From Sinorhizobium fredii USDA 257 (GTDB lineage Bacteria; Pseudomonadota; Alphaproteobacteria; Rhizobiales; Rhizobiaceae): 64,000 bases of DNA. Below are positions 9,376 through 26,368 of the stretch, in pieces; position 1 is the stretch's first letter, and each line of letters starts with the position of its first letter. The notes under the pieces were generated by a model that searched no databases, was not told the origin of the DNA, and saw only the letters and a list, made by a program, of their open reading frames with translations. The stretch covers positions 2,232,001 to 2,296,000 of the forward strand of contig NC_018000.1 of assembly GCF_000265205.3 (NCBI RefSeq). The letters run 5' to 3'. The translations under genes were made by a program, and so were the position numbers.

Positions 9376-9380
9376 TGAAC

Positions 9381-10889
9381 TTAGCTGCGCGATTCGGCCT
9401 CGGCGACATGGAGATCATCGTCGGCGGTTTCTTTCGCCGGCACGATGAGGTTGACGGCCACCGCCACGGTGACGTTGAGCGCCAGCGCCAGCAGCCCGGT
9501 ATAGACCGAGACGGTCACGCCGTCGAAGGCCAGCGCGTGCAGCGGCTTTAGCCCATCCGACCAGACGAGAGCCGACCCGCCGATGAAGCCGGCGGCCCAG
9601 CCGGCAAGCAGTGCCGGAGCGCGGAACCAGCTCGTATAGAGGCCGAAGACGAGGGCCGGCAGCGTCTGCAGGATCCACAGGCCGCCGAGCAGCTGCAGGT
9701 CGAGCGCGAACTGGGTCGGCAGCAGCAGGATGGCGACAAGCGCCCCCACCTTGACCAGCATCGAGGTGATCTTGGCGACCTGTGCCTCGCCGGCGGGGGT
9801 GACATCCGGATTGACCCAGACCTTCCAGAAGTTGCGGGTGAAGAGGTTCGCTGCGCCGATGCTCATGACGGCCGCCGGGACGAGCGCGCCGATGGCGATC
9901 GCCGAGAAGGCAAAGCCTGCGAACCAGCCCGGGAACAGCGTCTTGAACAGCGTCGGGACGACGTCGTTGTTGCTCTGAAGCTGAAGCCCGGCGGCGTGGC
10001 CCATATAGCCGAGCAGGGCGAGCAGGCCGAGGAGCAGCGTATAGGCGGGCAACAGCACCGCATTCTTGCGGATCGTGTTTGCGCCCGACGAAGCGAAGAT
10101 GCCGGTCAGCGTGTGCGGATACATGAAGGCGGCGAGCGCCGAGCCGAGTGCGAGCGTCACATAGGGAACGAGCTGCGTCGGATCGAGCAGGATGCCGCCC
10201 TTGCCCTTCGCCTCGAAGGCCGCGTCGGCTGCCGAAAAGACGGCGCTATAGCCGCCGAGCTTGGAGGGCACGACGATGATCGCCGCAAGCACCACGATAT
10301 AGATCATGATGTCCTTGACGAAGGCGATGAGCGCCGGTGCCCTGAGGCCAGACGAATAAGTGTAGAGGGCAAGCACCAGGAAGGCGAGGATGATCGGCAT
10401 TTCGCCTGTAAGCCCCAGCGCCTTGATCGCCACCTCCATGCCGATGAGCTGCAGGGCGATATAAGGCATCGTCGCGATCACGCCGGTGGACGCGACGGCA
10501 AGCTCCAGAGCGCGCGAGCCGTAGGTGCCGCGCACCACGTCACCGGCCGTCACGTAGCCGCGCTCCTTCGCCGCCTTCCACAGGAGCGGCATGACGGCAA
10601 ACACCAGCGGATAGACGATGATCGTGTAGGGCAGCGCGAAGAAGCCGTAAGCCCCAATCGCATAGACCAGCGCCGGCACGGCGATGACCGTATAGGCGGT
10701 GTAGAAGTCGCCGCCGACGAGGAACCAGGTGATCCAGGTGCCGAACTTGCGGCCGCCGAGGCCCCATTCGTCGAGGTGATCGAGCGATTCGGCCCGGCGC
10801 CAGCGCGAAGCGAAGAAGCCCATGGCCGTGACGAGCACGAAGAAGAAGATGAAGACGGCGAGCGCCGACATGTCGATGTTAGCTTTCAT
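9381..10889 (-). CDS. mctP: Sodium:solute symporter, MctP-like monocarboxylate transporter
   Basis: A 502-residue permease with about 13 hydrophobic helices of the SSS family. Family patterns include WGLGGRKFGTWITWFLVGGDFYTAYT near residues 42-67 and YGSRALELA further on. It follows a 58-residue DUF3311 protein whose stop overlaps its start by 11 bases, the standard small-subunit arrangement for this symporter subfamily. Together with the kinase-regulator pair downstream it matches the MctP locus described in Rhizobium leguminosarum, which imports lactate, pyruvate, alanine and related monocarboxylates. The specific substrate assignment rests on family and context. Confidence 0.85.
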   Translation of the reverse strand: MKANIDMSALAVFIFFFVLVTAMGFFASRWRRAESLDHLDEWGLGGRKFGTWITWFLVGGDFYTAYTVIAVPALVYAIGAYGFFALPYTIIVYPLVFAVMPLLWKAAKERGYVTAGDVVRGTYGSRALELAVASTGVIATMPYIALQLIGMEVAIKALGLTGEMPIILAFLVLALYTYSSGLRAPALIAFVKDIMIYIVVLAAIIVVPSKLGGYSAVFSAADAAFEAKGKGGILLDPTQLVPYVTLALGSALAAFMYPHTLTGIFASSGANTIRKNAVLLPAYTLLLGLLALLGYMGHAAGLQLQSNNDVVPTLFKTLFPGWFAGFAFSAIAIGALVPAAVMSIGAANLFTRNFWKVWVNPDVTPAGEAQVAKITSMLVKVGALVAILLLPTQFALDLQLLGGLWILQTLPALVFGLYTSWFRAPALLAGWAAGFIGGSALVWSDGLKPLHALAFDGVTVSVYTGLLALALNVTVAVAVNLIVPAKETADDDLHVAEAESRS

Positions 10890-11233: not shown

Positions 11234-11929
11234 TCATCCCTCTCGCTGGAACTGTTGCCGGCGCGACAGCACGATCACCTTCGCACCGATTTTCACCCGC
11301 TCATAAAGATCGATGACGTCGTCATTCGTCATGCGAAAACACCCCGAAGAGGAGGATTGGCCGACGCTTTGCGGCTCGTTCGAGCCGTGGATGCGGTAGA
11401 GCGTATTGCCGAGATAGATGGCGCGCGCGCCAAGCGGATTGTCGACGCCGCCTGCCATGTAGGCCGGAAGCTCCGGCCGCCTGGCGCGCATGTCGGCGGG
11501 CGGCCGCCACTCCGGCCAGGCGCGTTTGCCGCTCACCATTTCGGTTCCGTGCCAGCCATAGCCTTCGCGCCCGACGCCGACACTGTAGCGCAGCGCCTTG
11601 CCGCCAGGAACGATGTAGTAAAGGGCGTAGCGGCTCGTATCGATGATGATCGTTCCTGGCGGCTCCTGGGTGCGGTATTCCACCAAATGCCTCGGCACGA
11701 ACGCCCCCGCCTGCGGAGAGACCAACGCTCCCCGCTCGTGGCGCGGCGGGTAGGCCGGCGGCGACATCAGGAACTCGATATAGCCGCTGTCGATCCAGAC
11801 CCGCTTGTTCTTCTTGTCGAGGATCGGCGGCCAAGGCTGGTCCGCGGTCGCATGCGCGCCCGACGGCGTCAGAAGGAGGAGAAGAAGCAGCAGCCTCAGA
11901 GGCTGCATCCTCGGCGGCAAATCCGACAT
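11234..11929 (-). CDS. L,D-transpeptidase (YkuD domain), last gene of the type III secretion operon
   Basis: A 231-residue exported protein. A signal peptide (RLLLLLLLLTPSGAHA) is followed by a YkuD catalytic domain with the family motif HGSN...SSSSGCFRM; the catalytic residues would be H181 and C197. A GAGGAG ribosome site precedes the ATG at 11929. L,D-transpeptidases form 3-3 peptidoglycan cross-links or anchor proteins to the wall in the periplasm, and are abundant in Rhizobiales. The gene starts 28 bases after sctU on the same strand, so it probably belongs to the secretion operon. A wall-remodelling role for secretion is inference; it could also be a house-keeping paralogue transcribed by read-through. 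Confidence 0.88.
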   Translation of the reverse strand: MSDLPPRMQPLRLLLLLLLLTPSGAHATADQPWPPILDKKNKRVWIDSGYIEFLMSPPAYPPRHERGALVSPQAGAFVPRHLVEYRTQEPPGTIIIDTSRYALYYIVPGGKALRYSVGVGREGYGWHGTEMVSGKRAWPEWRPPADMRARRPELPAYMAGGVDNPLGARAIYLGNTLYRIHGSNEPQSVGQSSSSGCFRMTNDDVIDLYERVKIGAKVIVLSRRQQFQREG

Positions 11930-11957: not shown

Positions 11958-12995
11958 TCAAATCAGACCATTGGCGACCAGGGCATTCGCCACCTCCTGG
12001 AAGAGCCGGTCCGGAACGGGCGCCCCGACGGGTGTCTTGCCAAGCTCGGCGGCGAGCTCCGCGTCGGCCATGAACGGTATTCCCTGGCTTCTCGCCTGCG
12101 CTCTCATCGAGAACGCCGCTGCACCGACGGCACGACAGACGACGATCGGCACGGGCGTTTCGCCGCGGACATAGCGAATGCCAATCGACACCGACCGCTC
12201 CTCGCCGATCAGCAGCACGGCGCTCGTAAGTCCGGTCCTCGTCGTTCCGAAGAGACGCGCCAGCTTGCGGCGCTCCTGCCGGATCAGCGGATCGCCTTCC
12301 GTATCCTTGTGTTCGCGCTTGCTCTCCGACCGGGTCATGCGCATTTCGCGCATGAACAGCCAGCGCTGCAGGAAGACATCGACCACGCCCATGACGACAA
12401 AAGCGGCAATCGCGATTGACGTGATGGTCTTCAGCATGGAGAGCGACGTCGCATGCAGACAGGCAAAGCCGCAGGTCGGCGACTGGAACAGAGCTCCAAG
12501 CCCCGCATGGAAGACGACGGCAAAGGCGATGGAGAGCGCAACGATCTTGAACAGGGCCTTGCCGAAATCGACGACGCTCTTCAGCGAGGCCATCCGCTTC
12601 AGCCCCGATGCCGGATTGATGCGGTTGAAATCCGGCTCGATCGGTCTGGCCGAGAAGACGAAGCCCTTGGTGATCGCGACATTGGTGGCGAGAATGGCGA
12701 TGATCGTGATGCCGAGGATGGGCAGCACCGTCGTCCAAAGCGCATCGGCGGCGATCGTGCTCAGCCGGTACCAGACATCGGCGAAGGGGCGGGCGTGGAT
12801 CTGAGCCGCCTCGTCCAGGAGCCGGTCGATCTTCACCTCAAGATTCGGCGCGATATAGAACAGGAACAAGGTGGAGAACAGGACGACGATGCCAGAGACC
12901 ATGTCCGGGCTGTGCAGCACCTGGCCTTTGCGGCGCGCGTCCCGGATCTTCTTGTCGGAAGCGGGAAGCGTCTTCTCCTCGCTTGTTTCGCTCAT
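11958..12995 (-). CDS. sctU: Type III secretion export-gate switch protein SctU (RhcU/YscU family), NPTH motif absent
   Basis: 345 residues, the normal family length. The N-terminus SETSEEKTLPASDKKIRDARRKGQVLHSPD is the typical SctU/FlhB opening, followed by four membrane helices and a cytoplasmic linker (RSESKREHKDTEGDP). The C-terminal domain is recognisable through SIGIRYVRGETPVPIVVCRA. Where the family has the self-cleaving NPTH, the aligned residues are EERS (residues 265-268, bases 12192-12203), in LIGEERSVSIGI. Autocleavage is therefore not expected. It overlaps the TPR lipoprotein gene by an ATGA and sits far from sctR-S-T, which are in the opposite operon. Confidence 0.92.
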   Translation of the reverse strand: MSETSEEKTLPASDKKIRDARRKGQVLHSPDMVSGIVVLFSTLFLFYIAPNLEVKIDRLLDEAAQIHARPFADVWYRLSTIAADALWTTVLPILGITIIAILATNVAITKGFVFSARPIEPDFNRINPASGLKRMASLKSVVDFGKALFKIVALSIAFAVVFHAGLGALFQSPTCGFACLHATSLSMLKTITSIAIAAFVVMGVVDVFLQRWLFMREMRMTRSESKREHKDTEGDPLIRQERRKLARLFGTTRTGLTSAVLLIGEERSVSIGIRYVRGETPVPIVVCRAVGAAAFSMRAQARSQGIPFMADAELAAELGKTPVGAPVPDRLFQEVANALVANGLI

Positions 12996-13846
12996 GTGAC
13001 GTCATCATCCCTGGACGACGCCAGCAGACCGATTTCCTGTGCACGGTTGGCGACGTCCGGGATGGAGCGCAATTTTGCCGCCTTCGCGAGGATCTGGCTT
13101 TTCTGCCTCGCCGACATCTCGGGCACGGCGACGGATCGCGCCTTTTCCGTTTCGCCGGCCATGGTTAGAACGATCAGGTAGTTGACGAAATGCCGCCGTT
13201 CGGCGAGCGGCGAGCCCACGACGGTCGTCATATGCGTTACCGCCTGCGTCAGGTTGTTCGAGAGCGCTTCGGCAAGCGCCAGATTTGTCGTCGTGTCGAG
13301 GTTGGACGGCTGCAGCGCCAGGGCCCTCGAAAATGCGCCCTCCGCCGCTCCGCCGTTGCCGCTGAAGACGAGCGCCGTTCCCAGTCGGTTATACGCCACC
13401 ACCGAATTCAGCGCCTCGGCGGCCGGTGCCAGGCTTCGTGCCGCCGACTCCGCCTCTCCCTTCTGCAACTGAGCGGTTCCGAGCCCAAGCAGCGCGTCGG
13501 CGTCCTTGGGATCGATCTCGAGGGCGGCGCGGAAGGCTTGCTCGGCCCCCTCGACGTCACCCGCCTTGAGGCGCGCATTGCCGAGCCGGACGCGCATCGA
13601 CGCATCGTTCGGCGCATTGGCAGCGGCGCGCTCGTAGAGCGCCAATGCCGTTTCGCTTTCGCCCTTCGCCTCGATGCTCTGGGCGATGCTCAGCAGCTTC
13701 ATCTGGGCGCCCGCCTGCTTGTCCTTCTCCTTGTCGGCAGGAACCGTGGTGCAGGCAGATAGCACCAGGAGCGCAGCAACGGCCCCGATCCCCCGCCCCA
13801 TGCTAGGCCGGCAACGGCCCGGATTCAGAAACCAACACGCCTTCAT
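12992..13846 (-). CDS. TPR lipoprotein, TadD-like (probable secretin pilotin)
   Basis: 284 residues. The N-terminal signal carries the lipobox VLSAC, followed by TTVPADKEKD, and then several tetratricopeptide repeats (e.g. ALALYERAAANAPNDASMRV, AEQAFRAALEIDPKDADALL, EGAFSRALALQPSNLDTTTN). The layout and size match TadD, the outer-membrane lipoprotein that helps Tad-pilus secretins assemble. Its stop overlaps sctU (ATGA) and its start overlaps the CpaD-like gene (ATGA), so it is firmly inside the type III operon. A shorter start at 13801 (MGRGIGAVAALLVLSAC) would give a more compact signal peptide. TPR lipoproteins are common, so TadD kinship depends partly on the neighbours. Confidence 0.8.
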   Translation of the reverse strand: MKACWFLNPGRCRPSMGRGIGAVAALLVLSACTTVPADKEKDKQAGAQMKLLSIAQSIEAKGESETALALYERAAANAPNDASMRVRLGNARLKAGDVEGAEQAFRAALEIDPKDADALLGLGTAQLQKGEAESAARSLAPAAEALNSVVAYNRLGTALVFSGNGGAAEGAFSRALALQPSNLDTTTNLALAEALSNNLTQAVTHMTTVVGSPLAERRHFVNYLIVLTMAGETEKARSVAVPEMSARQKSQILAKAAKLRSIPDVANRAQEIGLLASSRDDDVT

Positions 13847-14247
13847 TCTACCCCCGTTTCATTCGCCGCGTTGCGGTGGCTACCGCCGACGTCCCCGTAT
13901 CGATCGATGTAGTTTTTCGCTGCGCGCGCCACGGGCGCGGCCATCGCCGGGCCCATTTCGCGACCCTTGAGCAGATGCCGCTGATCCGCAGCCATGAGCT
14001 GTAGATTGAGGTTGTTGGCGCAGCCGGACGGCAGGTAAAGCGGCTGGTCGGCGGTATCCGGCGTGATGCATGCATCGGGCACCAGCGTCTGGGTCGCGGT
14101 CGTGTCGTAGCCCTTGCGAACGAGCCCGCCCTTCGCCGGCGGGGCACCGTGCATCGAGAGATAGCTGTAATTGGGGGAATAGGGTTGCGGATGCGAACCG
14201 CTGCAGCCCGCCGAGGCGAGCAGGCCGGCCATCAACGCCGCCCGCAT
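13843..14247 (-). CDS. CpaD-like outer-membrane lipoprotein
   Basis: 134 residues from the ATG at 14247, which has GGGAG upstream and gives a compact lipoprotein signal MRAALMAGLLASAGC; starts at 14280 or 14295 would overlap the secretin gene. The C-terminal half, PSGCANNLNLQLMAADQRHLLKGREMG, resembles the conserved GC...NLA.MVA.P.DL..PR pattern of CpaD, a lipoprotein of Tad-pilus outer-membrane complexes; the tail KNYIDRYG also fits. It lies between a CpaC-type secretin and a TadD-like lipoprotein. The match is by recalled family pattern, not an alignment, and the protein is shorter than a typical CpaD of about 220 residues. Confidence 0.65.
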   Translation of the reverse strand: MRAALMAGLLASAGCSGSHPQPYSPNYSYLSMHGAPPAKGGLVRKGYDTTATQTLVPDACITPDTADQPLYLPSGCANNLNLQLMAADQRHLLKGREMGPAMAAPVARAAKNYIDRYGDVGGSHRNAANETGVE

Positions 14248-14269
14248 CTTCGCCACTCCCGAAGGAATT

Positions 14270-15613
14270 TCATTCAACATAGAAGCCGTATCCATTGTTG
14301 ACCGCCGGCTTCGCCTTCTTGCGCGGCGAGGTAATCACACCGGAGGGGCTGTCCAGCGGCGTTTTCATGTTTCGCTCGGAGGTGGGTGACACGAGGTATG
14401 GGGTGATCAGGATGACGAGTTCCGTCTCATTGCGCTGGAACCGCTTGGACTTGAACAATTCACCGAGGATCGGCACGTCGCCGACGACGGGCGTCTTGTT
14501 CAGCGTCTGCGATTCCTGCCGTTGGAACAGGCCGGCGATCGCAAAGGTCTGGCCGCTGCCGACCTCGACGGTCGTGTCCGCACGGCGGATGCGCAGCGAC
14601 GGCACCACCAATCCGGCGATCGAGACGACGCTGTCCTGCGAAACGCTGCTGACCTCGGGACGAACCTGCAGGGCGATTCGGTTGTTCGGCAGCAGCGTCG
14701 GGGTGAATTGCAGCGACACGCCGAATTGCTTGTATTCGATGCCGATCTGACCGTCGCCAGCCGGCACCGGCACCGGTAGCTCGCCGCCCGCCAGGAAACT
14801 TGCGGTCTGGCCGGTGACGGCGGTGATGTTGGGCTCCGCCAGGATGGTCAGGATGCCGTTTGCCTGCAGCGCGTCGAGCAGCACATTCACGTTCACATTA
14901 TCGCCCCGTGCACCGATGGCGATCCCCGTATCGTCTTCATTGCTGGCGCCGCCGGTCCGAACGATGCCGAAGGAGAAGGATCCGCTGTTGACGAAAACGC
15001 TCCAATCGATGCCGAAGCGCGTCAATTCGTTGCGGGCGACTTCGGCAAAGCGGACGCGGATATTGACCTGGTTCGGTCCGGCAATCGTCGTGTTGTTGAG
15101 CGCCGGCTTGTCGGGTGTCGAATAGCTCTGCAGGACACTTTCCATGTCCATCGCCTCGCCGACATTGCGGGTCTGGCCGGTGCCGACATATTGCCCACCG
15201 AAGAGGCTGATATCGACCCTGGTCGTCGGCTGCAGCGCCAGGGCCGACTGTTCCGCGGCTCTCGGATTGCCGCTGACGCGCACCTGCACGGTGCCGCGCG
15301 TCATCTGATCGGCGCTGAGCGCGATCAGATTGGTATCGCCGGTCTTCGTCGCGTAGATGTAGACGACGCCGGGCGAGACGACGCGCACGTCGGCGATTGC
15401 CGTGTCGGCGAGAAACACCGACTCGACCGGTTCGTCGAAGCGAAGAATCGTGCCCTCGCCAACGGTGAGTTCCAGAACCTGGCCGTTTATGGCGTCGACC
15501 TTAACCTGCGCACTCGCCGATCGCAGTGCACAGTGGACCGCAAGTGCGGCCAGCAAGATAAACAGAAAGAGTTTCCCCGCCTGGACAAAGCGAAGGCTTC
15601 GCAAAACTAGCAT
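14270..15613 (-). CDS. Tad-pilus (CpaC/RcpA)-type secretin serving the type III system
   Basis: 447 residues with a signal peptide (LFLFILLAALAVHCALRSASA). The N-domain reads LELTVGEGTILRFDEPVESVFLADTAIADVRVVSPGVVYIYA, the distinctive opening of CpaC/RcpA secretins, not the SctC N0-N1 fold. A secretin core follows (VNIRVRFAEVARNELTRFGIDW, TILAEPNITAVTGQTASFLAGGELPVPV, LRIRRADTTVEVGSGQTFAIAGLF, LGELFKSKRFQRNETELVILITPYLV). It would form the outer-membrane ring. It sits 80 bases after sctV and is followed by CpaD- and TadD-like genes, while a separate protein at 20.1 kb supplies an SctC-type N-domain. Functionally it takes the place of RhcC2/SctC. Confidence 0.88.
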   Translation of the reverse strand: MLVLRSLRFVQAGKLFLFILLAALAVHCALRSASAQVKVDAINGQVLELTVGEGTILRFDEPVESVFLADTAIADVRVVSPGVVYIYATKTGDTNLIALSADQMTRGTVQVRVSGNPRAAEQSALALQPTTRVDISLFGGQYVGTGQTRNVGEAMDMESVLQSYSTPDKPALNNTTIAGPNQVNIRVRFAEVARNELTRFGIDWSVFVNSGSFSFGIVRTGGASNEDDTGIAIGARGDNVNVNVLLDALQANGILTILAEPNITAVTGQTASFLAGGELPVPVPAGDGQIGIEYKQFGVSLQFTPTLLPNNRIALQVRPEVSSVSQDSVVSIAGLVVPSLRIRRADTTVEVGSGQTFAIAGLFQRQESQTLNKTPVVGDVPILGELFKSKRFQRNETELVILITPYLVSPTSERNMKTPLDSPSGVITSPRKKAKPAVNNGYGFYVE

Positions 15614-15693: not shown

Positions 15694-17844
15694 TCATCCG
15701 CGACCGGCACCTCCAAGCTCCGGCGTTCCGGCGACCGGAAGCGCGATATAGCCGAGGCATTGGACGCTGAACTCCGCAGAGATTTCCTGATAGGACAGAA
15801 CCGCCATAGGGACGTCGTGGCGCATCAGGAGGTTTCGGATGTGCCGACGAATGTCCATTGAGGTCAGGATCGCGGTGCGCGACTGCGCATCGGCCTTCTC
15901 GCGCCGCCTCTTGAGCTCCTCGAGGATCGGTGCCGCCAGACGCTCCGGCACAGTGCCGGCCGGACCGCTATTCTTCTCGATCGCCGCTCGCACTTCGTCT
16001 TCGAACGGCCGCGTCAACAGATAGGCCGAAACGATCCGGTTGCTGTCGGCAAGACGAAAACAGATCTGCCGCCCGAGGCTCGCCCGCACATTGTCGGTGA
16101 GCGCCTGCAGGTTCTGGACTTGCGCTGCACGTTCGGCGATCGTCTGCAGAATGATGCGCATATTGGTGATCGGCACGTCTTCCTCGATCAGCCTGCGGAG
16201 CACGTCGGCAAGCCTCTGCACCGACACGACCTCCAGAACCTCCTTGATCAGATCGCCATAGGTCTCTTCCAGCCGGCCGAGCAGCGCACGCGTTTCCTGC
16301 GCGTCGATGAAGTCCGGCGCATAGCGGCGCAGGACGCGCTCGACGAGCGTCATCACCACGTCTGCCGGCTCGCAATAGCCGACATCGGCAGCGTCGAGAG
16401 CTGCCGCATGCGATCGTTCGATCCAGACGAGCTTCAGCCCCAGGAGGTCCGGCTGCGTCACATAGGGAATCGACATGATGTCGAGATCGACGGTTTCGTC
16501 CCAGACCATGAGGTGGTCGAGCAGGAGCGCACCCTCGACGACGGGAACGCCCTCGAAGTCGATGCGAAACTCGACCGGCGCGAGTCGCGCGGCGGTGTGC
16601 AGGCCGATCGCCGGAACGCGAATGCCGAGATCCTCAAGGATCGCTTCGGCGAGGCCCTCCGCCCGCTCGGTGAACGATGGCTGAGGCAGACACCCGGCAA
16701 GTTCCTCCCCCATCGTCACAGTAATCCTTTGCGGCATTCCAGCGGGCGTGCCCGGAGCCCCGGGCAGGTTGCCCGCTATGTGATCGACGACACGTCCACC
16801 GGGGGACACGGAGCGGTCCGCTTCGCGTCGGGTCGGAGCAGTCCGTGCAACCTCTTCGGCAGCCTGGCGTCTGCGGGCGGCGTAGGCGAGCAGGCCGGCC
16901 ACGCCGGCAAGCGCCCAGAAGACGATGAGCGGAAAACCCGGAACCAGCCCGAAACCGAAAAGGATCGCCGCCGCCAGCGCCAGCGCACGCTCGCTCGCAC
17001 CGAGCTGCCCGAGGATTTCGGAGCTGAGGTCCTGCGGGCCGCGGCCGGACGGCACGCGCGTCACCACCGCCCCTGCCGCCACCGCCATCATCAGCGCCGG
17101 TATCTGCGAAATGAGGCCGTCGCCGACCGTCAGCAGCGAATAAGTGTGCGCCGCTTCGCCGACCGAAAGGCCGCGTTGCAAGGATCCGATCGTCAGGCCG
17201 CCGATGAGGTTGATCGCAATGATGATCAATCCCGCCACCGCGTCGCCCTTGACGAATTTCATCGCGCCGTCCATGGCGCCGTAGAACTGGCTCTCGCGTT
17301 CGAGGTCGTCGCGCCGGCGCCGCGCCTCCTGCTGGTCGATGTCGCCGCTGCGGGCCTCGTTGTCGATGCTCATCTGCTTGCCCGGCATCGCGTCGAGCGC
17401 GAAGCGGGCCCCGACCTCGGCGACGCGCTCGGCGCCTTTGGTGATCACCACGAATTGGGCGATGGTGATGATCAGGAAGACGATGAGCCCGACGAGCACG
17501 TCACCACCGACGACGAAGGAGCCGAAGGCAGCGACGATCTGTCCGGCATCCGCGTCAGTCAGGATCAGCCGCGTCGTGGTGATCGCCAGGGCCAGCCGGA
17601 AGAGCGTACCGAGCAGGATGATCGAGGGCAACGAGGAGAATTGCGCCGGGCTTGAAATATAGAGCGCGCCGACGAGAATGAGCAGGCTGTAGAAGAAATT
17701 GAAGCCGATCAGCACGTCGACGAGAAAAGTCGGCATCGGGATGATCATCATGGTGATTGCCAGCATCACCACGGCTGCAACGACGATGTCCGACCGCCGG
17801 GATGCCGCCCTGGCGAACTGGTTGACCGCGGCGATCGCGCTCAT
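15694..17844 (-). CDS. sctV: Type III secretion export gate protein SctV
   Basis: 716 residues from the ATG at 17844, which forms an ATGA overlap with sctY. The first 320 residues contain about eight membrane helices with the FHIPEP-family patterns FLVDVLIGFNFFYSLLILVGALYI, LLGTLFRLALAITTTRLIL and GDAVAGLIIIAINLIGGL, then LLTVGDGLISQIPALMMAVAAGAVVTR. The large cytoplasmic domain (from about residue 350) forms the nonameric ring that receives substrate-chaperone complexes. The length is normal for the family. Gene order X-Y-V is that of Yersinia yscX-yscY-yscV. Confidence 0.96.
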   Translation of the reverse strand: MSAIAAVNQFARAASRRSDIVVAAVVMLAITMMIIPMPTFLVDVLIGFNFFYSLLILVGALYISSPAQFSSLPSIILLGTLFRLALAITTTRLILTDADAGQIVAAFGSFVVGGDVLVGLIVFLIITIAQFVVITKGAERVAEVGARFALDAMPGKQMSIDNEARSGDIDQQEARRRRDDLERESQFYGAMDGAMKFVKGDAVAGLIIIAINLIGGLTIGSLQRGLSVGEAAHTYSLLTVGDGLISQIPALMMAVAAGAVVTRVPSGRGPQDLSSEILGQLGASERALALAAAILFGFGLVPGFPLIVFWALAGVAGLLAYAARRRQAAEEVARTAPTRREADRSVSPGGRVVDHIAGNLPGAPGTPAGMPQRITVTMGEELAGCLPQPSFTERAEGLAEAILEDLGIRVPAIGLHTAARLAPVEFRIDFEGVPVVEGALLLDHLMVWDETVDLDIMSIPYVTQPDLLGLKLVWIERSHAAALDAADVGYCEPADVVMTLVERVLRRYAPDFIDAQETRALLGRLEETYGDLIKEVLEVVSVQRLADVLRRLIEEDVPITNMRIILQTIAERAAQVQNLQALTDNVRASLGRQICFRLADSNRIVSAYLLTRPFEDEVRAAIEKNSGPAGTVPERLAAPILEELKRRREKADAQSRTAILTSMDIRRHIRNLLMRHDVPMAVLSYQEISAEFSVQCLGYIALPVAGTPELGGAGRG

Positions 17845-18176
17845 TCCGCCACCCTCGCCCGAAGATAGGCCTCGAACGCTTCGCGGGCCTGGTCCTTCTC
17901 TCCGCGCAGCCACTGTGCCTTGCTCCTCAACCGCCCAGCGGCTGGATCGACGGCTTCGGAAATGTCCTCTATCCGATCGATGGCGGCGATCGCACGCAGG
18001 CCGGCACCGCTCTCGACGAATGCCTCGGCCAGCGAATGCAACACCGCGACATTGTCCGGGGCCATTTTTGCCGCAAGCAGAAGAAATACCAGGCCGCGCT
18101 CATGGTGGCCGGCGCGACAGTAGAGCGAACCGAGCGCATGAAGGAATTCGAGGCTGTCCGCGTGCCGCTGCGTCAA
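17841..18176 (-). CDS. sctY: SctY-like TPR chaperone
   Basis: A 111-residue TPR-like protein (HALGSLYCRAGHHERGLVFLLLAAKMAPDN, LHSLAEAFVESGAGLRAIAAIDRI), similar in size to YscY (114 residues). It overlaps sctX by 4 bases at its start and sctV by 4 bases at its end. In Yersinia YscY binds YscX and SctV and is needed for early substrate export. The assignment rests on size, fold and the exact X-Y-V order; sequence identity to YscY cannot be checked here. Confidence 0.75.
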   Translation of the reverse strand: MTQRHADSLEFLHALGSLYCRAGHHERGLVFLLLAAKMAPDNVAVLHSLAEAFVESGAGLRAIAAIDRIEDISEAVDPAAGRLRSKAQWLRGEKDQAREAFEAYLRARVAE

Positions 18177-18570: not shown

Positions 18571-19476
18571 TCAGAAGCGGAGGACGAATTCTTCGCCTTG
18601 CCGGGCGGCCGTCAGGCTGCCGTCACGGATGTCCTTGATGTACCAGCCGTCCTCGAGTGCGGCTCCCCTGTAAAGACGCGCGCCGTCGGCGCCGATCGCA
18701 TAGGGCGTCTCGCCGAACCAGACGGCTCGGAGATTGAATTTCGGTGCCGCCTTGGGCACGGCGTCGCCGACCAGGCTCGTCAGAACGTAAGCCGTGCCAT
18801 AGGAACGGTCGAACCAGGCCTGGACCTCGCCCCAGTTCTTGCGGGCCTCGTCATCGACGGCACCGGAAACGGAAAACCGCGTCCCCTCGACGTCGACTTT
18901 CAGGTCCGACAGACCGGAGTCGCGCAGCCTTGCCGAAAGTGCTGCCGAGACATCCTGTGGCGAAGCAACCGTGGACGCGACCGTCCCGGTCGTCATCGCC
19001 TTCTCGTCGAGAGCCGCCATGGAAAGCCGGTGATCGACGTCCGCAACTCCGGCTTGGACGGCAGCTATGGTAAGCAGCGAGAAAGCCGCCACGCCGCCGA
19101 GCATCCAGCTGGCGCGCGACGACTTTTCCGCCTTTCGAGGCGTCGCTTCCCGCGCCGGCCGGGAAAGGCTGAGGCTTGCGCCGCCGAGCGTCACCGTCAC
19201 GGGGGTGGGAACCTGAAGCCCATGTCCGACCGGGACGGTCGTGTCGTCCACCACGAGATCGGCGCCGATGGCCTCGATCATCACGTCCGCCCCGGCAAAC
19301 TGCAGGCGCATGTGATGCGCCGACACATCGCTGTCGCTGAGCATCAGGTCGCAATCGGCGCCGGAACCGATCAGATAGGCGCCCTTATCCAAAGGCAGTG
19401 AAACGCCGCTGTGCACGCCCTTCAAGACATCGAGCGTCAAAGCGGCAGGATTCCTCAAGACCAGATTGGATGCCAT
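18571..19476 (-). CDS. sctD: Type III secretion inner-membrane ring protein SctD with FHA domain
   Basis: 301 residues from the ATG at 19476 (GAGGTGAT upstream). Residues 1 to about 100 form an FHA-like domain (LDVLKGVHSGVSLPLDKGAYLIGSGADCDLMLSDSDVSAHHMRL), as in YscD/SctD cytoplasmic domains. A single membrane helix (ASWMLGGVAAFSLLTIAAVQAGVA) near residue 130 is followed by periplasmic ring-building repeats. The protein makes the outer of the two inner-membrane rings with SctJ. It is shorter than YscD (about 419 residues), so some periplasmic modules appear to be missing. It is separated from the upstream 53-residue gene by a hairpin. Confidence 0.87.
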   Translation of the reverse strand: MASNLVLRNPAALTLDVLKGVHSGVSLPLDKGAYLIGSGADCDLMLSDSDVSAHHMRLQFAGADVMIEAIGADLVVDDTTVPVGHGLQVPTPVTVTLGGASLSLSRPAREATPRKAEKSSRASWMLGGVAAFSLLTIAAVQAGVADVDHRLSMAALDEKAMTTGTVASTVASPQDVSAALSARLRDSGLSDLKVDVEGTRFSVSGAVDDEARKNWGEVQAWFDRSYGTAYVLTSLVGDAVPKAAPKFNLRAVWFGETPYAIGADGARLYRGAALEDGWYIKDIRDGSLTAARQGEEFVLRF

Positions 19477-19568
19477 GGAACTATCACCTCGCTGGCCGGA
19501 TAGCCGAGACACCGACGCCGCGCGCAAGGCGCAGCCCGGTCAAGTCAGGTTTCTCGCAAATGTGGATG

Positions 19569-19761: not shown

Positions 19762-20127
19762 TGTCTTCTCCTTGAGAAATTCGGGCCGGTCGGGGCAAGG
19801 CCCGGCGCCGGCATACAGTTCTTATCGAGTCGACCCCCCATCTCGGGGCGGTGCAATGGTTAAGGTCGAAGCCAGGGAATGACAATTTGCAAGAGCATCA
19901 CATAATATTTCTGTGTGTAATACTTCGTGAGTATAAACGATTAGATCGCGCCAACAACTGTCATAAAATTGTTACCGGCTCGGAGAAATCAGTTACTTTC
20001 AAAGGATTTTCAGCCGGTGCTTGTTTAGCAAAGGGCGTTACTTGTATTTTTTCGGAACCTCGAGTTGCACCTGTCGATCTACTGTTATAGTTTTCGGCCG
20101 CTGATGCGAACAATCGGAACGTTTGAC
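19762..20127. promoter_or_regulatory. Divergent control region between the two type III operons
   Basis: 366 bases without a gene. The left quarter is GC-rich with small inverted repeats; from about 19880 to 20127 it becomes distinctly AT-rich compared with its surroundings (e.g. CACATAATATTTCTGTGTGT, CAACTGTCATAAAATTGTTA). Both operons start here and are read outward. I looked for a tts box of the kind bound by TtsI and did not find a recognisable one, and no TtsI, HrpL or AraC-type secretion regulator is encoded in the locus. Promoters must be present but I cannot place them reliably. Confidence 0.7.
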
Positions 20128-20781
20128 ATGAAGAACGTCATGCTCATGGGGAGGTTCTGTATGTTTGCTATCGCTATATTAGCGAGCACATATCCGACAT
20201 TTGCCGGATATCCGGGCTGGTATGGCAGCAAATACAGCTATGTCCTGATCAACCAGGACGTTCGCGACGCGCTGCAGGAGTTCGGCCGCAACCTCTCGAT
20301 TCCGGTGCTTCTGTCCGACAAGATCCGTGGCCAGGTGCGCGGCGAAATCCGCTCCGAAACTGCGGGCGGCTTCCTCGACAAGCTGACGCAGGGGAACGGT
20401 CTCATCTGGTATTTCGACGGCTCGGTCCTGCACATAAATACGAGCGACGAGTTCTCGACGCAGATCATCAACATCGGCAGGGCGAACGGCAAGGCGGTGA
20501 TAGATGAGATCGAGCGGCTCGACCTCATGGATGAGCGCTTCTCCGTACGAGCCACCGCCAACGCCCCCGCGCTTCGCGTGTCGGGTCCGCCCCCATTCAT
20601 TGCAATGGTCAAGCAGGTCGTTTCGTCCGTTCAACCGCCCCCGGCGGCCCAGATGGACGATCCGCGGGTAAGGATCTTCCGCGGCGGACAGCACGACGAG
20701 GTTGCGGACGATCTGACCGAGAACGGTCGCAAGACGGCCGCCAATTCAAAAACAAGCGACACCTTAGCAGGAGAGCAATAG
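20128..20781 (+). CDS. Free-standing SctC N-terminal domain protein (RhcC1/NolW-like)
   Basis: 217 residues from the ATG at 20128, which gives a normal signal peptide (MKNVMLMGR followed by a hydrophobic core ending PTFAG). The ATG at 20161 has a stronger GGGGAGG site but would leave a signal without positive charges. The mature protein YSYVLINQDVRDALQEFGRN, LSIPVLLSDKIRGQVRGEIR, LDKLTQGNGLIWYFDGSVLHI and RVSGPPPFIAMVKQVV closely follows the N0-N1 domains of YscC-type secretins. There is no secretin pore domain. In classic rhizobial systems the secretin is likewise split into RhcC1 and RhcC2; here the second part is a Tad-type protein at 14.3-15.6 kb. Confidence 0.87.
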   Translation: MKNVMLMGRFCMFAIAILASTYPTFAGYPGWYGSKYSYVLINQDVRDALQEFGRNLSIPVLLSDKIRGQVRGEIRSETAGGFLDKLTQGNGLIWYFDGSVLHINTSDEFSTQIINIGRANGKAVIDEIERLDLMDERFSVRATANAPALRVSGPPPFIAMVKQVVSSVQPPPAAQMDDPRVRIFRGGQHDEVADDLTENGRKTAANSKTSDTLAGEQ

Positions 20782-20997: not shown

Positions 20998-21429
20998 ATG
21001 ACGGTTGTCCCGACAGTGGAGACTGCCACGCTTCCAATGTCCCCTGCTCCGCAGGAGTCGGTCCCGCTCGCTTCGCAGAACCTGTTCGAGCATTCCGCGC
21101 TGAACGCCAATACGCTGCCGCACGGTGCGAGCCCGGCGGATCTCGGCCGGACGATCATCGACAAACTCGAAGGTTTCGTCGAACGCGCCGGAAAATTCGC
21201 CAGCAGGACCGGGCTTTCCGCCGAACCTGGCCAATCGCCGACATCGCCGTCTTTTGTGCCGAACGCGGCTAACGCGGAAGCGAATCTCACACGTACGCCG
21301 GACAGCGAGGCCGGGCGGCTGGTGGAAGCCTTGGGCAGGATCTTCGACCATGCGATCGAGACGCAGATGGTCGTCCGCGCTCCGACGCAATTCACCAGCG
21401 CGACGATGACGCTCACCAAAGGTCAATGA
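20998..21429 (+). CDS. sctI: SctI-like inner rod protein (NolB position)
   Basis: 143 residues from the ATG at 20998 (AACAGGAGACGC upstream). The N-terminal two thirds is low-complexity and Pro/Ala/Thr-rich; the C-terminus is amphipathic and helical (AGRLVEALGRIFDHAIETQM) and ends MTLTKGQ, reminiscent of the C-terminus of YscI/NolB rod proteins. It overlaps sctJ by 4 bases, exactly where nolB precedes rhcJ in rhizobia. Assignment is mainly positional. Confidence 0.7.
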   Translation: MTVVPTVETATLPMSPAPQESVPLASQNLFEHSALNANTLPHGASPADLGRTIIDKLEGFVERAGKFASRTGLSAEPGQSPTSPSFVPNAANAEANLTRTPDSEAGRLVEALGRIFDHAIETQMVVRAPTQFTSATMTLTKGQ

Positions 21430-22226
21430 AGATCTTGCTGCGTTCCCCGGCAATTGCGCGCGGACTGGTGCTCGCATTTATGGTTCTGACGCTGCAAGCC
21501 TGCAGCGTCGACCTCTACACCAACCTCGATGAGCGCGAGGCGAATGAAATGGTCGCGACGCTGCTCGCGAAGGGAATTGCCGCGGGCCGTGTCGTGCAGA
21601 AGGACGGTAAGCTGACGGTTACGGTTGATGAGGATCAATTCTCGCAGGCCGTGACCGTGCTCAACATGGCGGGACTGCCCAAGGAAAAATTTGCCACACT
21701 CGGCACAGTGTTCCGGCAGGAGGGCCTTGTCGCCTCGCCAGTGCAGGAACGCGCGCAGATGATCTATGCGCTCAGCGAAGAGCTTTCCCGCACCGTTTCC
21801 GAAATCGACGGCGTCCTGTCGGCCCGTGTCCACGTCGTCCTGCCCGACAATGACCCGCTGCAGCGCAACGCAATTCCCGCTTCCGCCTCCGTATTCATCC
21901 GGCACGAAGCGGAGCTCGACGTCAATCCGCTGATCCCGCGGATCAAGACATTGGTCGCCAACAGCATATCGGGCCTTACTTACGAGAAGGTCTCGGTCGT
22001 GCCCGTCGCCAGCCAGCGGACGAGCGAGCCCGTTGCCGCTGCCGAGCTGACGTCCTTCCTCGGGATCTGGATGCTGCCGGCGAGCGTCGCCAAGGCCCGG
22101 TTGATCTTCGGCTGTCTCCTCGCCGGCCTGCTCGCGGCGATCGGCTGCCTCGGCTATCTGGCATGGCGAAAGCAGAGCCGGCGCCGGAAGGTCTATCCGC
22201 TGCAACCCTATGGCCCGGCGAAATGA
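21426..22226 (+). CDS. sctJ: Type III secretion inner-membrane ring lipoprotein SctJ
   Basis: 266 residues. Lipobox LTLQACSVDLYTNL, then the two ring-building domains of the family (LDEREANEMVATLLAKGI, FSQAVTVLNMAGLPKEKFATLG, FRQEGLVASPVQERAQMIYA, LSRTVSEIDGVLSARVHVVLPD, PASASVFIRHE) and a C-terminal membrane helix (LIFGCLLAGLLAAIGCLGYLAW) with a short basic tail. It forms the inner ring with SctD. The stop overlaps sctK (ATGA). Length and motifs are standard. Confidence 0.96.
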   Translation: MKILLRSPAIARGLVLAFMVLTLQACSVDLYTNLDEREANEMVATLLAKGIAAGRVVQKDGKLTVTVDEDQFSQAVTVLNMAGLPKEKFATLGTVFRQEGLVASPVQERAQMIYALSEELSRTVSEIDGVLSARVHVVLPDNDPLQRNAIPASASVFIRHEAELDVNPLIPRIKTLVANSISGLTYEKVSVVPVASQRTSEPVAAAELTSFLGIWMLPASVAKARLIFGCLLAGLLAAIGCLGYLAWRKQSRRRKVYPLQPYGPAK

Positions 22227-22894: not shown

Positions 22895-23496
22895 ACGACA
22901 TCCCTTCGAGCCCCACTAAAAAAATACTCCGGCAAGCCGAAGCAGAGCAGTGGCTCGAAGGCTTTGCCTTCCTGGAGGCGGCGAAGGCCGCAGCGGACCG
23001 GCAGCTCGCTGGGGTGCGTGACCTCGTCGAGAAAAGCAGGAGGGAGGGCTACGAAGCCGGGCGGGTCGAGGGCGAACGCCAGGCGGCAGCGCTGCTTCTG
23101 AGGACCACCGCCGCAGTCAACGCCTACATGGCCGGGTTGGACCGGCAGATTGCCGAGCTCAGCCTGGCGGTCATTGAGAAACTGCTTGGCCGATTCGATC
23201 AGGCCGAGCTCGTCGCCAGGCTGGCGCAGCAGGCGCTGCAATCGTTCCAGCATGAGCGCGACGTCACGATTACCGTTGCCCCCGTGCTTGCCGAACGCGT
23301 CGCCGAGTTCGTGCATCAGCACAGCAACAACGGCACGCTGAAGATAGCCGTTCTCCCCGATCCTCGACTGGATGCGAACAAATGCGTGCTCGCCAACGCC
23401 GTGGCCGTCGTCGATGCGGGCCTTGACACGCAGCTCTCGGTGATACGCGAAGCGCTGCTCGGCGCCCAGCCCAGTCGCTCGGACTCCGCCGCATGA
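22891..23496 (+). CDS. sctL: Type III secretion stator protein SctL (NolV)
   Basis: 201 residues with an N-terminal coiled-coil region (AADRQLAGVRDLVEKSRREG, YEAGRVEGERQAAALLLRTT) and the C-terminal FliH/SctL domain (LDRQIAELSLAVIEKLLGRF, VTITVAPVLAERV, RLDANKCVLANAVAVVDAGLDTQL). It binds and regulates the SctN ATPase. It overlaps both neighbours by 4 bases. Length is normal. Confidence 0.92.
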   Translation: MNDIPSSPTKKILRQAEAEQWLEGFAFLEAAKAAADRQLAGVRDLVEKSRREGYEAGRVEGERQAAALLLRTTAAVNAYMAGLDRQIAELSLAVIEKLLGRFDQAELVARLAQQALQSFQHERDVTITVAPVLAERVAEFVHQHSNNGTLKIAVLPDPRLDANKCVLANAVAVVDAGLDTQLSVIREALLGAQPSRSDSAA

Positions 23497-24839
23497 ACAA
23501 GCATCTCCTGACCGATTCGGGCGACCTCATCCGGCGGCTGCGAGAGCGGGCGCTCGGCAGCGAAACACGGCCCGTGCATGGCCGTGTTCGCCGGATAACC
23601 GGCATCATCGTCCACGCGACTGCACCGATGGTGCGGATCGGCGAACTCTGCCATCTGAGGGACCCGGTTTCGGGCGCGACGGTACCGGCGGAGGTCGTCG
23701 GCTTCGAGGACGAGGAGGCCGTGCTGACGCCGATCGGCGATCTCGACGGCATGTCGACACGCGCCGAGGTCATCGCCACCGGGAAAACCCTGCAGATCCC
23801 GGTTTGCGACGACCTCCTCGGCCGGGTCCTGAACCCCTTGGGCGAATTTCTCGATTTCTCCGGCGACCGGACGCTCCCGCTCGTCACTGACACCTATTAT
23901 CCGACGCACCGGCCGCCGCCCCCCGCCCTTCACCGTGACCTGATCACCGAACCGCTGCAACTCGGCATTCGGGCGATCGACGGGTTGCTGACGGTGGCGC
24001 GCGGCCAACGCGTCGGCATCTTCGGCGAGCCGGGCGTCGGCAAATCCTCGCTGCTTTCCGCTATCGTCCGCGGCACCAAGGCCGACGTCATCATCATCGG
24101 TCTCATCGGTGAGCGTGGCCGCGAGGTGCGGGAATTCATCGAGGGACAGCTCGGCGAAGAGGGGCGCCGTCGCTCTGTCGTCGTGGTTGCGACCTCCGAC
24201 CGCCCGGCGATCGAGCGGGTGAAGGCCGCCTATGCCGCGACGGCGATCGCCGAATATTTCCGCGATCAGCGCCGCGACGTCCTGCTGCTGATGGACAGCG
24301 TCACCCGTTTCGCCCGTGCCCAGCGAGAGATCGGCCTGGCGGCCGGCGAGCCGCCGACGCGCCGCGGCTATCCGCCGTCGCTCTTCGCCGCCCTCCCGCG
24401 CCTCTTGGAGCGCGCCGGTCCGGGGCAAGGCGGCTCGATCACCGCCCTCTACACGGTATTGACCGAGGGCGACGGCACGCTGGACCCGGTTGCGGAGGAG
24501 ACGAAGGCCATTCTCGACGGGCACATCATGTTGAGTTCCGATCTCGCCGAGCGCAACTTCTTCCCGGCCATCGATATCTTGAAAAGCCGCAGCCGCCTGA
24601 TGGAAACCATCGCCAGCAGGACGCATCGGGACGATGCGGCCCGCATTCGTACGCTGCTTGCCCGTTTCGAAGAGATCGAACTTTTGCTGCGGGTCGGCGA
24701 ATACGAACGCGGCGCAGACGCCCTTTCGGATGAAGCGATCGACAAGCGCGACGCCATCGACGCTTTTCTGCGACAGGAGAGTGACGCGTTCTCGCCGCTG
24801 GAGGCGACCGTCGAGCAATTGAAGAGGTTGGCTGCGTGA
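23493..24839 (+). CDS. sctN: Type III secretion ATPase SctN
   Basis: 448 residues. Walker A is GIFGEPGVGKSSL near residue 175, Walker B is VLLLMDSVTRFARAQREIGLAAGEPPTRRGYPPS, a wording diagnostic for FliI/SctN ATPases, and the C-terminal domain includes LDGHIMLSSDLAERNFFPAIDIL. It forms the hexameric ATPase under the export gate and unfolds substrates. Overlaps with sctL and sctO show translational coupling. Confidence 0.97.
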   Translation: MNKHLLTDSGDLIRRLRERALGSETRPVHGRVRRITGIIVHATAPMVRIGELCHLRDPVSGATVPAEVVGFEDEEAVLTPIGDLDGMSTRAEVIATGKTLQIPVCDDLLGRVLNPLGEFLDFSGDRTLPLVTDTYYPTHRPPPPALHRDLITEPLQLGIRAIDGLLTVARGQRVGIFGEPGVGKSSLLSAIVRGTKADVIIIGLIGERGREVREFIEGQLGEEGRRRSVVVVATSDRPAIERVKAAYAATAIAEYFRDQRRDVLLLMDSVTRFARAQREIGLAAGEPPTRRGYPPSLFAALPRLLERAGPGQGGSITALYTVLTEGDGTLDPVAEETKAILDGHIMLSSDLAERNFFPAIDILKSRSRLMETIASRTHRDDAARIRTLLARFEEIELLLRVGEYERGADALSDEAIDKRDAIDAFLRQESDAFSPLEATVEQLKRLAA

Positions 24840-25318
24840 CCCGGAAAGGCGATTTGCGGCAGCTTGTCGAATTGAGGGCGATGCGGATGCGGCGGGCGGA
24901 GGAGCAGGCCCAGCGCCAGCACAATCGTCATGATCAAACCGTCCGAGCGCTGGAAGCGGCAAAGGCTGAAAACCTTGCCCACGATGAACAGCGCAGGCGG
25001 GAAGAGCAGGCCCTCTATTCCAATCTCGCTCAAGGGACCCTCGATCATCGCGACCTCGGACGATATCGGGGCGCGCTGTCCGACCTGGATCACCGCGCCC
25101 GTGATCTGGAGGAACGCATTCACGGCGCGGAGCGCCACGAAAGGCGGGAAAGCCGAAAAAGGGAAGAACTCGCCGCCGAATATCGACGGAAACAAAAACT
25201 GCACGACCGCATTCAGATCCTTGCCGAGGAGAAACAACGGAAGGCGACGAAGCGCGCCGACCTCATCAACGAGATCGAGGACGAAGAGGCGATCCGTCCA
25301 AAGGGCAGAAAGCGGTAG
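24836..25318 (+). CDS. sctO: Type III secretion stalk protein SctO (Y4yJ position)
   Basis: 160 residues, start GTG overlapping the sctN stop (GTGA). Very rich in Arg, Glu, Gln and predicted almost entirely as a coiled coil (e.g. RMRRAEEQAQRQHNRHDQTV, EERIHGAERHERRESRKREE), which is how SctO/FliJ stalks look. It connects the ATPase to SctV. Sequence conservation in this family is low; fold and position make the call. Confidence 0.85.
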   Translation: MTRKGDLRQLVELRAMRMRRAEEQAQRQHNRHDQTVRALEAAKAENLAHDEQRRREEQALYSNLAQGTLDHRDLGRYRGALSDLDHRARDLEERIHGAERHERRESRKREELAAEYRRKQKLHDRIQILAEEKQRKATKRADLINEIEDEEAIRPKGRKR

Positions 25319-25321
25319 ACG

Positions 25322-26368
25322 ATGAGGCTGTCGACCCAGACCCCGCCCGCCGCGGATATCCGCTCGCTCACGGAGGATCCCTCCTGGCTGCCGGAGGTCG
25401 CCGCGGCACAAATCGACCTCACCAACATGCTGTTGAGCATCCGGGGCGCCTTCCGGCTCTCGCTGCCGTCGGTCCATATTGACCTCGAACCCGGCGACAG
25501 TACGCGGCGCGTGATGGATCCGGTCCAGCTGGCGTTCCTGATCGGCGCCTCGCCGGGCCGATGGCTGATTCCCGCATCCGCGCTCGACCGGCTTTCAGCG
25601 CACCTCGGAGTAAGGGGAAGCCTCGTCAACTTCACCGCCCTGCAACGCAACATCCTCCTCGAGGAGGCTCTCGCCCCCGTGCTCGAGGAACTGGACAAGC
25701 GCATCGGAGAACCGTTGCGCCTGGAGCCGCCGGACGAGGCGGCCGACTATGCGATCAAGCTCCCCTGGACGATCGATAGCGGCGATTTTCCGCTCCCTGC
25801 CGAATTGCATTTGAGCGCCGCGGCGGCGTCGAAGATCGGAAAGGCCTTCGGCACCAGGACGAGTTTTTTGAACGAGTTCACTGATAATCTCGTCCAGCCG
25901 ATCCAGCTCCGCGCCGGCGGCCAGCAACTGACCCTCCGCGAGTTCAAGAGCCTTCGCCCCGGCGACATCGTCATGTGCGAGCAAGCGGACGAGCCGTTCG
26001 CCGTTCTTGGCAACCACCTCATCGCGCCTCTGCGCCGGAGCGAAGCCGGCCTCGCCTTCGCCTCCGGCTGGCAGCCACTGAAAACAAGTTGGGAATTCTC
26101 CGCCATGTCAAAGCAGGAAACGCCTTCGTCCGAAGAGCTCGAACCGCTCGCAGATCTGCCGATCGAGCTCGTCTTCGAGATCGGCCGCGCCGAATTCCCG
26201 CTGAAGGAAATCGCCAGGATGGGCGAGGGAACGGTGCTTCAAGCCAGCCCGAGCCTTTCAAGCCCCGTCAATATCCTGGCGAACGGGCGGCTGGTCGGGA
26301 AGGGTGAGTTGATCAGGATCGGCGAGGGCCTCGGCGTGCGCGTGGTGCGGCTTTCGACCGATGGGTGA
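25322..26368 (+). CDS. sctQ: Type III secretion cytoplasmic ring protein SctQ
   Basis: 348 residues. The C-terminal SpoA domain is evident from LADLPIELVFEIGRAEFPLK, EIARMGEGTVLQ and VNILANGRLVGKGELIRIGE GLGVRV, typical of SctQ/FliN. The protein forms the sorting-platform pods. Some SctQ genes have an internal start that makes a free SpoA fragment; an internal ATG at 26104 (MSKQETPSSEELEP) directly before this domain could serve, but I see only a weak ribosome site. It overlaps sctR by 8 bases. Confidence 0.93.
   Translation: MRLSTQTPPAADIRSLTEDPSWLPEVAAAQIDLTNMLLSIRGAFRLSLPSVHIDLEPGDSTRRVMDPVQLAFLIGASPGRWLIPASALDRLSAHLGVRGSLVNFTALQRNILLEEALAPVLEELDKRIGEPLRLEPPDEAADYAIKLPWTIDSGDFPLPAELHLSAAAASKIGKAFGTRTSFLNEFTDNLVQPIQLRAGGQQLTLREFKSLRPGDIVMCEQADEPFAVLGNHLIAPLRRSEAGLAFASGWQPLKTSWEFSAMSKQETPSSEELEPLADLPIELVFEIGRAEFPLKEIARMGEGTVLQASPSLSSPVNILANGRLVGKGELIRIGEGLGVRVVRLSTDG

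Follow-up and report, generated by a model that had tools for sequence, protein, structure and literature searches.

How secretins come to be swapped between molecular machines is an open question, which may be approached through a locus of Sinorhizobium fredii USDA 257 in which a type III secretion system (T3SS) carries genes of the kind found in Tad pilus loci. The locus lies in a stretch of 64,000 nucleotides (contig NC_018000.1, positions 2,232,001 to 2,296,000; hereafter the window), which falls at 2.23–2.30 Mb on a contig of 6.48 Mb, the whole genome measuring 7.03 Mb. A first-pass annotation had noted three Tad-type genes between sctV and sctU, for a secretin, a CpaD-like lipoprotein and a TadD-like lipoprotein with tetratricopeptide repeats (TPR), and all three are present there on the minus strand (Table 1). 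We consider it highly probable that they form the outer-membrane module of an Rhc-II T3SS, derived from the secretin module of a Tad pilus. The gene content, homology, conserved neighbourhood and conserved secretin tail that support this reading were observed directly.

The secretin and its two lipoproteins

The secretin has the domains of Tad secretins of the CpaC/RcpA type: T2SS-T3SS_pil_N of Pfam scores 61.5 bits against a cut-off of 23, which confirms the N-domain described in the first-pass annotation, and the Secretin family scores 149.6 bits. Its best match in the PDB is the Tad secretin RcpA (169.7 bits), compared with 24.9 and 21.9 bits for the T3SS secretins InvG and MxiD, so that it is nearest to Tad secretins. 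The match to TIGR02516 (SctC) is 78.0 bits against a cut-off of 238.45; GspD (120.2 bits) and PilQ (110.3 bits) score higher than this, both below their own cut-offs. An ordinary SctC is ruled out by the low score with TIGR02516 together with the position of RcpA far above InvG and MxiD, and the outcome that would have told against a Tad origin, a secretin matching best with SctC, did not occur.

What is left of SctC is encoded on the plus strand (20065–20781), where a remnant matches TIGR02516 at 92 bits over profile positions 2–152 of 463, and Pfam N0 at 32 bits. The T3SS's own secretin persists only as these N0 and short N domains, as described for RhcC1. Because this N-terminus survives, the outer ring is a hybrid, and the earlier idea of a borrowed outer-membrane ring with its helpers needs amending to this extent, while the Tad-type secretin and the CpaD-type and TadD-type genes are indeed conserved with the T3SS. 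In their treatment of these genes, Abby and Rocha (2012; PMC3459982) derived RhcC2 from Tad and suggested that RhcC1 was kept, perhaps as a linker; Denise (2019), in passages on secretin evolution, describes T3SSs as having co-opted secretins several times, with Tad among the sources.

A secretin split into RhcC1 and a Tad-like RhcC2, together with gene order and similarity like those of pNGR234b, characterizes Rhc subgroup II, and the window locus can be identified on these grounds as the Rhc-II T3SS of sinorhizobia. The secretin is 95.7% identical to the pNGR234b secretin of S. fredii NGR234, and the same gene order is found in locus L081. Passages of Tampakaki (2014; PMC3973906), which cover this cluster type, describe the chromosomal T3SS-II of S. 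fredii USDA257 as nearly identical to that of NGR234. The window therefore represents the same system as these T3SS-II clusters and T3SS-2 of Pseudomonas syringae, and nothing essential is different.

Taken alone, the CpaD-like protein falls below curated cut-offs (PF09476, 23.0 against 31.1; TIGR02522, 16.5 against 94.45); a relative on a Klebsiella plasmid exceeds that of PF09476, at 33.3. When a profile of 20 relatives (19 from Rhc-II loci, and L084) was compared by hhalign with one built from y4xK and Tad CpaD proteins, also 20 in number, the two aligned with a probability of 98.1 and an E-value of 6.5e-14 over 71 columns. Both profiles share a Cys, a GC...NL..M motif, DL, GR and GP, and the C-terminal CpaD signature C...GC...N..NL..M...DL..GR..GP is found in the window protein. 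The open reading frame (ORF) has 150 residues, with Cys31 in an SAGC lipobox (identified by eye), and its real start is possibly internal.

The match is limited to the last part of the CpaD profiles. Passages of a Tad structural paper (PMC13170226) report an OmpA-like N-terminal fold for CpaD of Caulobacter crescentus, which is modelled there as a belt on CpaC, and positions 27–110 of 208 in our CpaD alignment profile match OmpA-like PDB chains (E-value 6e-4 at best). Unlike Tad CpaD, the window protein lacks this domain, and it is only the C-terminal domain of CpaD, with the OmpA-like half missing; it is in this restricted sense, and by profile comparison, that the earlier description as CpaD-like stands. 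A y4xK of Rhc-I type (69.5 bits) and a CpaD of the Tad type (198.7 bits) are encoded in the same genome as well.

The TPR protein has a lipobox with Cys32, and curated families give only generic TPR matches, the best being MamA at 58 bits (cut-off 200), with SycD/LcrH at 45.9 (cut-off 104.8). When TadD was sought in the PDB by sequence, generic TPR proteins dominated the matches. The link to TadD rests on whole-genome ranking: in three genomes out of three (G361, G366 and G210, with Tad loci L131, L085 and L099), the TPR gene of the Tad locus ranks first genome-wide for the window protein, among 37–58 scored candidates per genome. In each of the three a Tad locus had been located but no Rhc T3SS, with no search made for sctV, and G361 has a second, unclassed secretin locus (L140). 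G505 has both Tad and T3SS loci, and here the Tad TPR gene comes second to that of the T3SS; of the three matches in G086, the first is on the contig of its Rhc-II locus, and neither of the loci retrieved contains the remaining two. Automated annotation has already given relatives of the protein names like 'Flp pilus assembly protein TadD'. The earlier TadD-like assignment thus gains from the ranking and the lipobox, and from curated profiles only as far as generic TPR. At the level of the gene, this is a TPR lipoprotein encoded with a Tad-type secretin, as is the TadD pilotin, and by analogy it is likely to be the pilotin here.

The minus-strand series runs sctV, secretin, CpaD-like lipoprotein, TPR lipoprotein, sctU, and the plus strand carries the SctC remnant, sctJ, sctN, sctO, sctQ and other T3SS genes. 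ATGA overlaps at the CpaD-like/TPR and TPR/sctU junctions, reported in the first-pass annotation, were both read directly in the sequence, and by its coordinates the start of the CpaD-like ORF overlaps the 3′ end of the secretin gene (13843–14295 and 14270–15613). The window resembles the Tad outer-membrane module (CpaC/RcpA, CpaD and TadD) in having a secretin, a C-terminal CpaD domain, a TPR lipoprotein and a secretin tail of GF type. Unlike Tad, it has no match to Flp pilin, the five matches in the genome (E-values up to 0.1) all being elsewhere, and among window ORFs starting at 4–30 kb none has CpaB, CpaE, CpaF, TadB or TadC as its best match at 18 bits or more. These results support the view, already taken in the first-pass annotation, that the locus is a T3SS with a Tad-type outer-membrane module and not a pilus locus.

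Conservation across genomes and alternative readings

A search for further loci with this gene order, as the first-pass annotation had suggested, was productive. The sctV, secretin and CpaD genes follow one another on one strand, with CpaD next to the secretin, in all 33 distinct Rhc-II loci, window included (35 loci minus the twins L063 and L108; L062 was unused, being on the same contig as L045). The TPR gene is within 2.6 kb of the secretin in 30 of the 33, on the same strand in 16 and inverted in 14. The window's full order, from sctV through secretin, CpaD and TPR to sctU, occurs in 15/33, and the same order with an inverted TPR gene in 11, where it should be noted that several loci stop before sctU is visible. 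In Rhc-I, all 13 loci have y4xK after the secretin and in the same orientation. The Rhc-II neighbourhood is maintained in Sinorhizobium, Rhizobium, Phyllobacterium, Mesorhizobium and others, with members outside Rhizobiales that include a Klebsiella plasmid and a Halomonas plasmid. Since the arrangement recurs in other genera, it is not due to chance.

We note three loci from the survey in their own right. The Klebsiella pneumoniae plasmid locus L075 (NZ_CP035384.1, 20008–45174) has an Rhc-II-like T3SS cluster in which RhcC2 is accompanied by a short CpaD-like protein, and no TPR match within the 25 kb shown; the secretin match recurs on two more Klebsiella plasmids. L084 (G505:C2:186000–205500) is an alphaproteobacterial T3SS with a Tad-type secretin ending in GFIID, a longer CpaD (216-residue ORF) and a separate TPR gene, and its secretin groups with Rhc-II in the tree described below. 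On a Thioclava plasmid (L079, NZ_CP053563.1), a Tad-type secretin adjoins type I secretion and TadE/TadG-like genes, in a stretch that has no CpaF match.

The window secretin ends in GYGFYVE, a GFYVE-type tail of a kind common to many Tad secretins; passages of a structural study of Tad show the last four residues of RcpA to be needed for TadD binding (PMC10499894). A tail of the form G[FYL]xx(x) is found in 43 of 50 distinct Tad secretins, 11/11 Rhc-I, 25/31 Rhc-II and 3/3 other T3SS secretins, although the pattern is loose and was set after the tails had been seen, so that these counts describe and do not test. The 50 Tad secretins were classed by their neighbours, with secretins below 200 bits and the small loci L018–L037 left out, and L080 was grouped with the other T3SSs (L084 and L141) in this count and with Rhc-II in the neighbourhood count. 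A tail-to-linker figure of 0.97 against 0.56 came from 19 of the 31 Rhc-II rows, those with GFYVGD, GFYLQ or K-ending tails having been excluded, and the fair count is 25/31. L071 and L072, which are within the 50, carry tails of GH type. The difference between GF-type and GH-type tails indicates that the T3SS tails resemble those of one Tad group rather than those of the Tad systems usual in this bacterial family.

In the TPR protein, N188 and N222 are conserved in 12/12 Rhc-II rows checked (all but L107 of the 13 Rhc-II TPR rows in alignment A1) and in 17/18 Tad rows each. In a search for compensation between tail and groove, position 218 of the window protein proved to be His in three rows with K-ending tails and Arg in nine others; the three His rows form one clade and count as one event.

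Other readings of the three genes have to be weighed. They are all of Tad type, and there are Tad genes elsewhere in the genome, so they could be a displaced fragment of a Tad locus that lies in a T3SS operon and still serves a Tad pilus. This is rejected as very improbable: the window has no pilin and the ORFs tested no Tad-core match, the T3SS neighbourhood is kept across the genera named above, the TPR gene is ATGA-coupled to sctU, the resident Tad locus (L060) already includes a secretin, a CpaD and a TadD, and the remnant of SctC in the same T3SS has no secretin domain. The TPR protein could also be a T3SS chaperone, or a generic TPR lipoprotein unrelated to secretin piloting, given that TPR repeats are generic and that MamA and SycD/LcrH are matched at the scores given above. 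However, the protein has a lipobox, whereas T3SS chaperones are described as generally cytoplasmic in passages of PMC4311626; a separate SctY-type chaperone is encoded at 17841–18176; and Tad-locus TPR genes rank first in 3/3 genomes. We judge this alternative unlikely as a whole, and a T3SS chaperone is rejected on the curated scores, the lipobox and the ranking of Tad TPR genes.

Several observations weigh against the reading preferred here, of a Tad-derived outer-membrane module in the Rhc-II T3SS. Six of the 31 Rhc-II tails are off pattern (three GFYVGD and three GMIVK), some that fit it end in GLIVK or GLIIK, and all 20 further secretins of the same bacterial family (L018–L037, unclassed) end in GH-type tails such as GHFLDL. 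The TPR gene is not near the secretin in three of the 33 loci (L065, L067 and L075); in the L067 genome it lies further along the contig (G086:C114:31151–31933) and holds an in-frame TGA. No other protein in the window genome matches the TPR protein at an E-value of 1e-5, so the module is not visibly derived from the resident Tad system. The TadD orthologue of C. crescentus, CpaO, is dispensable for pili according to passages of PMC13170226, and kinship to TadD therefore does not ensure a role as pilotin. Finally, passages of PMC3973906 give no known role for Rhc-II and describe its transcription in NGR234 as weak.

Table 1. Genes of the Rhc-II T3SS in the window, with window coordinates.
Feature	Position	Strand	Evidence
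RhcC2-II, Tad-type secretin, 447 residues, tail GYGFYVE	14270..15613	-	Pfam domains; RcpA 169.7 bits
CpaD-like lipoprotein, C-terminal CpaD domain only, 150-residue ORF	13843..14295	-	profile-profile match
TadD-like TPR lipoprotein, 284 residues, lipobox LSAC, Cys32, likely pilotin	12992..13846	-	
sctU	11958..12995	-	Pfam Bac_export_2 251.9 bits; TIGR01404 260.8 bits, below cut-off 358
sctV	15694..17913	-	TIGR01399 728.4 bits, cut-off 692.25
SctY-like T3SS chaperone (TPR)	17841..18176	-	59.6 bits, below cut-off 70
sctD, inner ring; FHA and Y4YQ_C domains	18571..19527	-	TIGR02500 77.9 bits, below cut-off 86
RhcC1-like, N0 and short N domain of ordinary SctC	20065..20781	+	TIGR02516, Pfam
sctJ	21426..22226	+	TIGR02544 229.3 bits, cut-off 161.95
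sctN ATPase	23493..24839	+	similarity to L075 gene annotated as FliI/YscN family, without family scan
sctO	24836..25318	+	YscO 28.1 bits, just below cut-off 28.8
sctQ	25322..26368	+	FliMN_C domain, 75.1 bits

Beside the T3SS, at 4951–10889, there are genes for a response regulator, a sensor kinase and a sodium:solute symporter, which resemble the pyruvate genes of pNGR234b and may be named RpuR/RpuS/MctP accordingly; the first part of the kinase, judged by eye, is transporter-like. An L,D-transpeptidase (YkuD) gene (11234–11929) directly follows sctU on the same strand. The T3SS is also flanked by two proteins of more than 1000 residues (28263–31433 and 31521–34637), one with a LysM domain and the other without any Pfam or NCBIfam match. 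HrpK-like genes are reported for Rhc-II in passages of PMC3574062.

Possible repeated capture of the Tad module

The secretin phylogeny that the first-pass annotation had called for places the secretins of both Rhc groups nearer to Tad than to each other. In an unrooted tree of 70 rows, as are all our secretin trees in being unrooted, Rhc-II forms one clade (20 rows, 100/97) and Rhc-I another (10 rows, 100/100), and the two are not sisters: Rhc-I is inside Tad and Rhc-II on another side, with starred branches between. The T3SS secretins of L084 and L141 group with Rhc-II (100/99). Each of the 20 Rhc-II rows has some Tad row nearer to it than any Rhc-I row is, and the same holds for each of the 10 Rhc-I rows with respect to Rhc-II, which suggests two captures.

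The trees favour two captures but do not prove them. On the published scenario (passages of PMC3459982), there was a single acquisition of a Tad secretin, in a common ancestor of the Rhc systems. Rhc-I and Rhc-II would in that case have diverged fast afterwards, and the present function would be the same. The approximately unbiased (AU) test does not reject a single Rhc clade in five of six runs, giving p values of 0.322 (47 rows, 24 of them Rhc-II), 0.111 and 0.077 (20 Rhc-II rows), 0.072 (65 rows, 20 Rhc-II, with L084, L141, L090, L112 and L136 dropped) and 0.097 for a joint secretin–CpaD tree (61 of the 70 rows, 20 Rhc-II; the CpaD domain was not found by pattern in eight rows and one row has no CpaD). 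Against this, a single clade is rejected in the largest run (p 0.0295; 73 rows, 20 Rhc-II), which lacked the long-branch rows L141 and L112 and had five Tad rows added, and both the 70-row tree and the distances to Tad rows set the two groups apart. The AU runs are not independent, and the question of two captures was raised after the first tree. A single ancestral capture is to our minds a serious contender, if slightly short of an even chance.

The proposal of repeated capture, which we hold to be evenly balanced between true and false, is that Rhc-I and Rhc-II each took up a Tad module, made up of a secretin and its CpaD and TadD helpers, so that there were two captures or more, from different lineages of Tad, and that the docking tail was kept each time. 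The portable unit would then be the secretin plus its lipoproteins, and the Rhc-II CpaD would later have been cut down to the domain that faces the secretin.

Comparison with known systems and proposed working

The Rhc-I T3SS of Mesorhizobium loti and of pNGR234a in S. fredii NGR234 is like Rhc-II in having a Tad-type RhcC2 with an RhcC1 remnant, an adjacent CpaD-like lipoprotein (y4xK, in the 13 loci described above) and a TadD-like TPR lipoprotein, Y4yS. The differences lie in arrangement and length. The Rhc-I y4yS is short (179 residues in the near-identical L069 and L083, against 284 for the Rhc-II protein) and stands beside rhcV, away from rhcC2, whereas in Rhc-II the secretin, CpaD and TPR genes adjoin; and y4xK matches the whole CpaD profile (64.5 bits), where the Rhc-II protein lacks the first half.

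For Rhc-I, retention of the helpers is already in print. In sections of Mercante (2015; PMC4311626) on M. loti, mlr8762 is described as CpaD-like and Y4yS as TadD-like, and loss of Y4yS lowers RhcC2, which needs it for normal levels. Passages of Tampakaki (2014) call y4xK a putative lipoprotein. A commentary by Gazi (2015; PMC4500985) regards RhcC2 of both subgroups as related to Tad, states that subgroup II is without y4yS, and asks why a system-specific pilotin is needed. Passages of Gazi (2012; PMC3574062) describe the Rhc-II cluster and its TPR proteins, including the TPR gene PSPPH_2523 of the P. syringae subgroup II cluster, which those passages do not call TadD-like. In the sources covered, which were largely outside subscription journals and for the most part passages, we found no paper that names the Rhc-II lipoproteins CpaD- and TadD-like, and none that proposes two Tad captures. 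The suggestion in the first-pass annotation that keeping the helpers would be a notable extension is thus anticipated for Rhc-I, while the presence of both helpers beside the Rhc-II secretin extends the literature, compared with the 2015 statement that y4yS is missing.

In the working that we propose, all physical contacts are inferred from homologues, and so are piloting and the location in the outer membrane. The secretin would be exported, and both lipoproteins would be lipidated and sorted to the outer membrane. The groove of the TPR lipoprotein may bind the last residues of the secretin (GFYVE), as TadD of Pseudomonas aeruginosa does with RcpA, and may bring the secretin to the outer membrane, where it would assemble. 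The CpaD-like lipoprotein probably touches the secretin barrel through its C-terminal domain and, without an OmpA-like half, would not tie the secretin to peptidoglycan. Following the proposal of Abby and Rocha, RhcC1, the leftover N-terminus of SctC, may link the SctD inner ring with the foreign secretin.

A CpaD that has been stripped of a domain points to the part of CpaD that may touch the secretin. If Rhc-II has a TadD-type pilotin together with the conserved tail, this gives a testable rule, that a secretin is portable when it comes with its pilotin, its tail and an adaptor, here RhcC1, to the inner ring. If the same module was indeed captured twice, this rule of portability would be seen at work in two cases.

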